A stretch of 64,000 nt of DNA, from the NCBI GenBank assembly GCA_903840415.1, contig CAIMFY010000122.1:1-64000 (forward strand), in the 5' to 3' direction. A program made the position numbers and the translations under genes. Every line of letters begins with the position of its first letter. Within the stretch, counting starts at the first letter, position 1. A model generated the notes under the pieces. That model was not told the DNA's origin. It saw only the letters and a program-made list of their open reading frames with translations, and searched no databases. This document shows, piece after piece, positions 13,865 to 13,998 of the stretch. Source of the DNA: an uncultured Opitutia bacterium. Lineage in GTDB: Bacteria > Verrucomicrobiota > Verrucomicrobiia > Opitutales > Opitutaceae.

Positions 13865-13907
13865 AAAAAAGAAACTTCCGCAAAGTGTTAATCACCCTGC
13901 GGAAGTT
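13865..13907 (-). terminator. Terminator of tRNA-Asn with motif-bearing loop
   Basis: On the reverse strand a perfect 10-bp stem (13898-13907 with 13873-13882) encloses a 15-nt loop and is followed by TTTCTTTTTT. It starts 16 nt after the tRNA-Asn CCA end. The loop holds gtgattaaca, the exact complement of tRNA-Asn nucleotides 33-42. Confidence 0.8.
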
Positions 13908-13923
13908 CGGATCAAAAAACAGA

Positions 13924-13998
13924 TGGCTGCCCGGGCTGGGATCGAACCAGCGACCAAGTGATTAACAGTCACCTGCTCTGCCACTGAGCTACCGGGCA
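13924..13998 (-). tRNA. tRNA-Asn (GTT)
   Basis: A 75-nt cloverleaf with encoded CCA. The acceptor stem tgcccgg/ccgggca is perfect. The anticodon loop CTGTTAA gives anticodon GTT, and the T-loop is TTCGATC. Its terminator follows on the same strand. Confidence 0.97.

Follow-up and report, generated by a model that had tools for sequence, protein, structure and literature searches.

The array of short repeats that follows the tRNA-Asn gene in the window, i.e. the whole 64-kb stretch of DNA analysed here, probably represents attL, the junction on the tRNA side, of an integrated element moved by a large serine recombinase (LSR). The repeated motif, designated X, would serve as the recombinase-binding site and the anticodon arm of the tRNA gene as the fourth site of the set; the probability of this reading may be put at roughly 0.7. 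While LSRs themselves are known, what appears to be new here is the combination of an LSR carrying a ParB-type domain, an array of sites and tRNA 3' ends as the recurrent target. Serine integrases are employed for placing large DNA in genomes, and their choice of target is hard to predict; in the present family, where an additional DNA-binding domain covaries with a short motif, nature supplies a set of variants that allows changes of residues to be compared with changes of the site.

The array beside the tRNA-Asn gene of the window

The 11-bp motif GTGTTAATCAC occurs in three exact copies of alternating orientation within 175 bp of the 3' end of tRNA-Asn (Table 1). The gene itself contributes one more copy, X0 (TGTTAATCACTT), which reads CTGTTAATCAC at 13958-13968 of the minus strand, with one mismatch to the motif. 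With up to one mismatch allowed, these four are the only matches in the 64-kb window, the shuffled window giving 0.33 matches on average and four in one of 100 shuffles. The inverted pair 13749-13762/13830-13843 is exact over 14 bp. Concerning the whole 4.9-Mb genome of the organism, the exact 11-mer is found four times, namely the three copies of the window and one on contig C114, inside what appears by eye to be a TonB-receptor coding sequence.

Table 1 Features of the tRNA-Asn gene and the adjacent array in the window
Feature	Position	Strand	Source
tRNA-Asn(GTT) gene	13924-13998	minus	ARAGORN; Rfam tRNA 68.3 bits
X0, fourth motif copy, anticodon loop and 3' stem	13956-13967	minus	
T-loop GTTCG, putative motif for the zinc-ribbon domain in the attB half	13943-13947	minus	sequence; position compared with PMC3783163
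GGGCAGCCA, final 9 nt of the tRNA, candidate crossover region	13924-13932	minus	
CGAAC, candidate zinc-ribbon-domain motif of the attP half	13905-13909	minus	
Terminator-like hairpin (stem of 16 pairs, loop of 5 nt) followed by a T-rich tail	13872-13908	minus	
X1, antisense to the tRNA, within the terminator-like hairpin	13885-13895	plus	
X2, in tRNA sense, at 52 bp from X1	13833-13843	minus	
X3, in tRNA antisense, at 84 bp from X2	13749-13759	plus	
Imperfect outer inverted repeat (13814-13827/13899-13912, 86%) around X1 and X2	13814-13912		

The motif search of the 64 kb thus agrees with the initial annotation in that sense and antisense copies of the anticodon stretch accompany the tRNA-Asn gene. 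The stretch TGTTAATCAC is indeed present in the tRNA, albeit at nucleotides 32-41 counted from the ARAGORN 5' end, not at 33-42. The terminator hairpin said to hold its complement in the loop is present too, starting about 16 nt beyond the CCA end; its loop, however, consists of ATTAA alone, 5 nt, so that GTG and CAC, with which the motif begins and ends, sit in the stem rather than in an open loop.

The recombinase family, its arrays and the tRNA 3' end

The search for the tRNA-Asn locus covered 95 genomes including the window's own, of which 92 gave a match, and the tRNA-Asn with up to 320 nt of its trailer (184 nt in L018) was compared in the 29 relatives returned as loci. Two of these, G037 and G046, have the window's arrangement after tRNA-Asn: the motif comes first, its reverse complement 53-56 nt later and a second direct copy after a further 80-84 nt. 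The motifs, GTGTTAAAATG and GATCGGTCAAAA, differ from that of the window, which means that the spacing and the pattern are conserved while the motif is replaced as a whole. The array of G037 is followed by an LSR gene; in G046 the distance from the tRNA to the end of an LSR gene is 213 nt.

A 400-aa part of the G037 LSR, taken as query, revealed relatives at E<=1e-40 in 46 of the 252 genomes of the window's bacterial family. The contig scan with one genome per species yielded 71 loci, mostly from Opitutaceae, Opitutae or Opitutus, with a few outside, from Acidobacteria, Magnetospirillum and Dechloromonas MAGs, and the class-wide search at E<=1e-80 retrieved 11 of 384 genomes, eight of them within the window's family. 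As for viral contigs, L206 alone exceeded 30% identity among the best 80 of 393 relatives. The Resolvase, Recombinase and zinc-ribbon domains followed each other in this order, above the Pfam cut-offs, in all four LSRs scanned; the NCBIfam scan of three LSRs returned nothing but matches far under the cut-off.

The association with tRNA genes is apparent from a wide-flank sample of 40 of the 82 listed LSR places, 39 of which were usable: a tRNA gene points its 3' end at the LSR in 33 of the 39 loci (16 Ser, 6 Gln, 4 Pro, 4 Asn, 2 Arg and 1 Glu). In the Ser, Pro, Arg and Glu loci and in one Asn locus, the LSR gene is co-oriented with the tRNA and starts beyond it, in most cases after about 280 nt. 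In the six Gln and the remaining three Asn loci it is the end of the gene, not its start, that faces the tRNA, and at four of these nine 2-5 kb of other DNA (maximum 4.9 kb) intervene. Even where the LSR gene is reversed or kilobases off, the array adjoins the tRNA. It should be noted that a sub-branch of longer LSRs, of about 790 aa (L168, L171, L172, L174, L175 and L179), was seen as well, with no tRNA in the flanks fetched for these loci. A further observation concerns the stretch GGGCYGAGGCC-N3-TGGATCGCCC, conserved upstream of the LSR start codon in L084, L085, L091, L095, L096 and L107, i.e. in Pro, Glu, Arg and some Ser elements; it may form a leader structure.

The search for arrays (X1, X2 in reverse complement, X3), with position limits set loosely, covered 47 distinct junctions including the window's. 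The array score exceeded all 30 of the junction's own dinucleotide shuffles in 31 of the 47, nine arrays being perfect at 10 nt; the 16 that did not exceed their shuffles comprise 13 Ser, 2 Pro and 1 Gly, the last of them (L193) having its tRNA 3.4 kb away and being probably unrelated. With L155, L187 and L193 excluded, 44 junctions entered the later counts. A further feature of the junction is GAAC, found after the CCA at offset 15 in 31 and at offset 16 in 8 junctions (39 of 44), any other offset below 60 accounting for under 5 of the 44. The spacing is strict in the Asn type: an X1/X2 pair with an allowed gap of 34-52 nt was detected as five arrays in 4 of the 252 genomes, the gap being exactly 41 nt in all five. 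The four Asn-type arrays adjoining tRNA-Asn have start distances of 73-75 (X0-X1), 52 (X1-X2) and 83-84 (X2-X3), values that would correspond roughly to 7, 5 and 8 turns of the helix. Outside the array and the tRNA, no additional copy of X was found in 12 stretches, motifs of at least 11 nt being allowed up to one mismatch and shorter ones none; the exact search overlooked two of the three copies in the Glu stretch.

The window's genome has one LSR of the family at E<=1e-40, encoded on contig C80 and not on that of the window (C122). This LSR is of the Asn type, sharing 67% identity over 687 aa with the LSR of G274 and 71% with the Asn-type LSR of G198. Contig C80 ends about 430 nt after the LSR gene, the contig of the window starts 13.7 kb before the array, and the orientation fits one element; no end overlap was found between the two. 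Both contig ends bear a similar repeat, CATAAGCATTAACCTAAGC and its reverse complement; the similar pieces there, GGGATAAACACCC and GCTTAGGTTAATGCTTATG or its reverse complement, at positions 1-200 of the window and at about 13810-13850 of L073, are perhaps the end of an insertion sequence that broke the assembly. The LSR of C80 would be the partner of the window's array. L130 carries the same Asn array together with an LSR of the Asn type. One more observation belongs here: the ORF at 248-2224 of the window, which would be cargo of the element, has by eye a TIR-domain-like start followed by TPR-like repeats.

The junction on the tRNA side can be located by comparing related copies. A copy of the element at tRNA-Ser (L083) and one without a tRNA (L087) are 90% identical from CCGCCA, the last six nucleotides of the tRNA, onward. 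The left flank of L087 is the best non-tRNA 25-mer for likeness to the tRNA-Ser 3' end, with 19 of 25 positions, in a scan of 88,636 positions in four loci, in which five other places reached 18 of 25. The boundary between element and chromosome in these related copies thus falls at the 3' end of the tRNA. In the Asn type, the homology of two related arrays likewise starts at GGGCAGCCA and continues outward. The T-arm and the acceptor 3' strand are therefore likely to constitute attB, the corresponding part of tRNA-Asn being the candidate attB half in the window.

For LI integrase, PMC3783163 places the zinc-ribbon motif at bp 16-24 in the half-site of attP, and 5 bp closer to the centre in that of attB. 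The GAAC past the CCA and the inverse GTTC in the T-loop would fit such an attP/attB pair, with the crossover about 6 nt inside the tRNA. The second Asn-type array of a genome (G162, contig C186; L204, 6250-6560), to which no tRNA is adjoined, has AGTTCG, GGGCAGCCA and CGAACT placed symmetrically at 6291, its homology to the tRNA-borne copy beginning at GGGCAGCCA; this site could be an intact attP or else a secondary insertion site. Within 14 stretches, GGGCAGCCA with an upstream GTTC was seen at the tRNA-Asn junctions, in L077, in L200 and at one chance site of the window. Concerning the far end of the element (attR), it was not found by searching 12 stretches of 14-70 kb for exact tRNA fragments of at least 12 nt, which gave array copies and two chance hits only.

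It should be pointed out that the tRNA-Asn of L130 is cut at the anticodon loop, the LSR array and the 3' half being separated, as judged by eye, from the 5' half. A second element at 6400-6900, with an apparent tyrosine-integrase start, has displaced the latter. An LSR crossover in the anticodon loop, considered from this locus, was dropped, what lies on the other side being likely, by eye, the tyrosine-integrase start.

The ParB-type domain, the motif X and the anticodon loop

The C-terminal helix-turn-helix (HTH) of the LSRs matches profiles of ParB/Spo0J/Noc in the PDB, with a best E-value of 1.6e-4 (6sdk), the Pfam family HTH_ParB staying below its own cut-off in the LSRs scanned. In the fold predicted from 38 sequences, the pLDDT is above 90 in the HTH block (mean 76 for the whole protein). 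Foldseek ranks ParB, Noc, SopB and KorB first for the C-terminal domain at probabilities of up to 1.00, the E-values being only about 0.01, with none below. The motif X, in turn, resembles the half-sites of parS and NBS.

The similarity of X among 32 elements correlates with the identity of the HTH (0.67), related LSRs being non-independent samples, so that the covariation supports, rather than proves, the link between the two. It persists when the protein middle is controlled for (partial Mantel r=0.364, p=5e-4, n=32), the reverse comparison, X against the middle given the HTH, yielding r=0.12. The sliding scan of 30 columns gave its best value, 0.672, in the HTH at residue 618, against 0.653 at residue 317 and a median of 0.518; the HTH is thus the highest peak of correlation with X but not a lone one. 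At the level of residues, His at one helix position goes with an X containing TTTAA in 15 of 16 elements (Ser, some Pro and that of G037). Arg accompanies TTTTG in G046, G138 and G129 and TTTCAC in the Glu element, Leu accompanies TTTTG in G040, Lys TTTTCCC, and Gln TTTTTAC, TTTTAG or the X of Asn. Within the ParB family, a switch from ParB to Noc specificity by four residues is reported in PMC7383237.

In 8 of the 44 junctions, X read in the sense of the tRNA equals at least 8 nt of the tRNA's own anticodon loop, the match starting at U33 or up to 4 nt before. The set comprises three Asn junctions, with matches of 10-14 nt, a Gln and a Glu junction, and three Arg junctions (two CCT and one CCG). 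At 6 nt or more, sense matches number 10 of 44. In the antisense direction there are none of at least 7 nt and two of at least 6 nt among the 44. All eight belong to the 15 junctions other than Ser and Pro, the latter contributing 0 of 29. Permutation of the tRNA labels gave p=1.5e-4 for 24 hand-picked representatives and p=4.5e-4 for the 12 non-Ser/Pro members of that set. No match was found in two of five Asn junctions (L069 and L070), nor at 8 nt in four of five Gln and one of four Arg junctions; among the Asn elements, those of G037 and G046 have an X that does not match the anticodon loop of the tRNA. In G046 both the motif TTTTGACC found at tRNA-Asn and the recombinase are of the Gln type; as GGGCAGCCA is the 3' end common to tRNA-Asn and tRNA-Gln in these genomes, a move between the two targets is plausible. 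A side observation concerns the Arg(CCT) element L105, in which 7 nt of X (CTCAAAT) recur in the D-loop of the tRNA, not in the anticodon loop, which may be chance.

With regard to the question whether the loop sequence varies freely in relatives, raised in the initial annotation, X does vary, but its copies within one element change together, and a subset of relatives matches the anticodon loop of their own tRNA, an outcome intermediate between free variation and conservation.

Proposed role of the array and alternative explanations

Based on the above comparisons, the LSR would bind the att core by its known domains and X1, X2 and X3 by its ParB/Noc-type C-terminal HTH domain. With X0, the anticodon arm of the targeted tRNA gene supplies a fourth copy of X to the Asn-type element, so that this domain could also hold the tRNA gene. 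In the matching elements the three element sites and the anticodon arm may thus come together in a four-site complex, which could aid the choice of the tRNA, hold the synapse or control direction; X0 itself may assist target choice or synapsis. A more detailed version can be proposed tentatively: the zinc ribbon would read the universal T-loop and the acceptor end and the ParB-like domain the DNA of the anticodon loop, with X, beside the att site of the element, as loading or control sites. Given such a two-part reading and the three copies of X borne by the element, the isoacceptor specificity would be written in X and be switchable by a few residues of one helix.

A competing explanation, unlikely yet the strongest of the alternatives, takes X for operators that repress the promoter of the recombinase itself, the tRNA match being a by-product of T-rich half-sites that resemble anticodon loops containing T33. 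It draws on the many Ser elements in which, by eye, X3 precedes both a promoter-like TGCGATAAT or TGCGATACT and the start codon of the LSR, on the presence of X without a tRNA match in Ser and Pro elements, and on the resemblance of X to ParB/Noc half-sites. Repression of this kind, however, does not sit well with three of four Asn and all six Gln loci, where the end of the LSR gene faces the tRNA, yet the array is at the tRNA. Nor does it agree with the matches, which reach 10-14 nt in Asn, have one sense and nearly one register over five tRNA types and exceed the label permutation. The initial annotation, in naming operators or element remnants as the alternative, came close, the relatives indicating that the array belongs to a recombinase element.

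Regulation at the level of RNA appears improbable. It would have X1 (and X3) pair with the anticodon arm, or alternative X1:X2 and X2:X3 hairpins control termination or recombinase expression. The location of X1 in a terminator-like hairpin is in its favour, and so are the strong X1:X2 hairpin in a longer transcript of the window (z=-5.1) and the mismatches between X3 and X2, with 22 G-U against 8 A-C, which lean toward RNA pairing. A local hairpin with at least five enclosing pairs around X1, likewise in its favour, is predicted in 24 of the 44 junctions (5/5 Asn, 4/5 Gln and 5/19 Ser). At 24 of 44, the hairpin is thus not the conserved feature of the family; retention of the X1/X2/X3 pattern is wider. 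The pairing of the trailer with the anticodon arm, as suggested in the initial annotation, was not supported: the co-folded precursor is predicted to form an intact cloverleaf and a separate hairpin, with a mean probability of about 7e-15 for the ten X0-X1 pairs, the forcing of which costs about 23 kcal/mol. The mismatches between X1 and X2 do not favour G-U (11 against 18 A-C), X follows the HTH of the recombinase, and the array stays at the tRNA whatever the direction of the LSR gene or when that gene is 2-5 kb off. The Rfam scan of 13400-14200, up to E=1, returned the tRNA family RF00005 only, with no T-box and no other structured RNA.

It is very improbable that the copies are leftovers of tyrosine-integrase elements that used the tRNA-Asn anticodon loop as att and left 3' halves behind; such fragments do lie near tRNA-Asn in several relatives, and one such element apparently splits the tRNA of L130, but the copies of the window are 11-14 nt long, alternating and at fixed spacing, other elements have a different X at the same places, and the relatives refute this origin for the array as a whole. 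Chance similarity in this single window, by which a lone 10-nt match could arise given the many places, is a negligible option, as four copies were reached in one of 100 shuffles and the architecture recurs in other genomes, the relatives thereby refuting it.

The reading preferred here, an attL array bound by the recombinase, may be set beside several known systems. The order of the Resolvase, Recombinase and zinc-ribbon domains is that of the serine integrases of the A118/LI, phiC31, Bxb1 and TndX type, and the candidate zinc-ribbon motif of the family lies near the place described for attP of LI integrase, bp 16-24, in PMC3783163. The C-terminal ParB-type HTH, the array outside the core att and the repeated choice of tRNA 3' ends are what the family adds to them. 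That domain shares both the sequence profile and the predicted fold with ParB, Noc, Spo0J and KorB; it differs from ParB in being fused to a recombinase and in facing single alternating sites instead of a palindrome such as parS or NBS. No CTP-binding ParB/Srx domain is among the families listed by the Pfam scans of four LSRs.

A T-box riboswitch carries a specifier, a codon-like loop complementary to the anticodon. The hairpin region of the window is likewise complementary to the anticodon, but the evidence points to DNA sites, and most LSR elements are without an anticodon match. As with the islands of the Islander type, which use tyrosine integrases, insertion is at tRNA genes and apparently restores the 3' end. 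The enzyme of the present family is unrelated, however, and what it has in copy of the tRNA is a short stretch that recurs with alternating orientation. In the 12 stretches of 14-70 kb, an Islander-like duplicated tRNA 3' fragment of at least 12 nt was not found beyond the array, chance hits apart. As regards earlier work, the tRNA-gene entries in the available part of a review of mobilizable elements are tyrosine enzymes (PMC5704250), and the available part of a study from 2026 counts attB sites in tRNA genes without dividing them by enzyme family (PMC12884075). No description of this LSR family was recognised in a search of one open-access library, and a published report of tRNA-specific serine integrases is possible.

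Finally, tRNA-Asn appears to be a hot spot for other elements too, as seen in L014 (G007), L026 (G043), L037 (G025), L038 (G079) and others. Copies of its 3' part, 31-59 nt long, lie 0.3-27 kb off on the same contig in about ten relatives. Several tRNA-Asn trailers contain tandem direct repeats with an 11-nt period, e.g. ACTGTCCCGTT, about 50-75 nt past the CCA, which resemble the arm sites of integrases.
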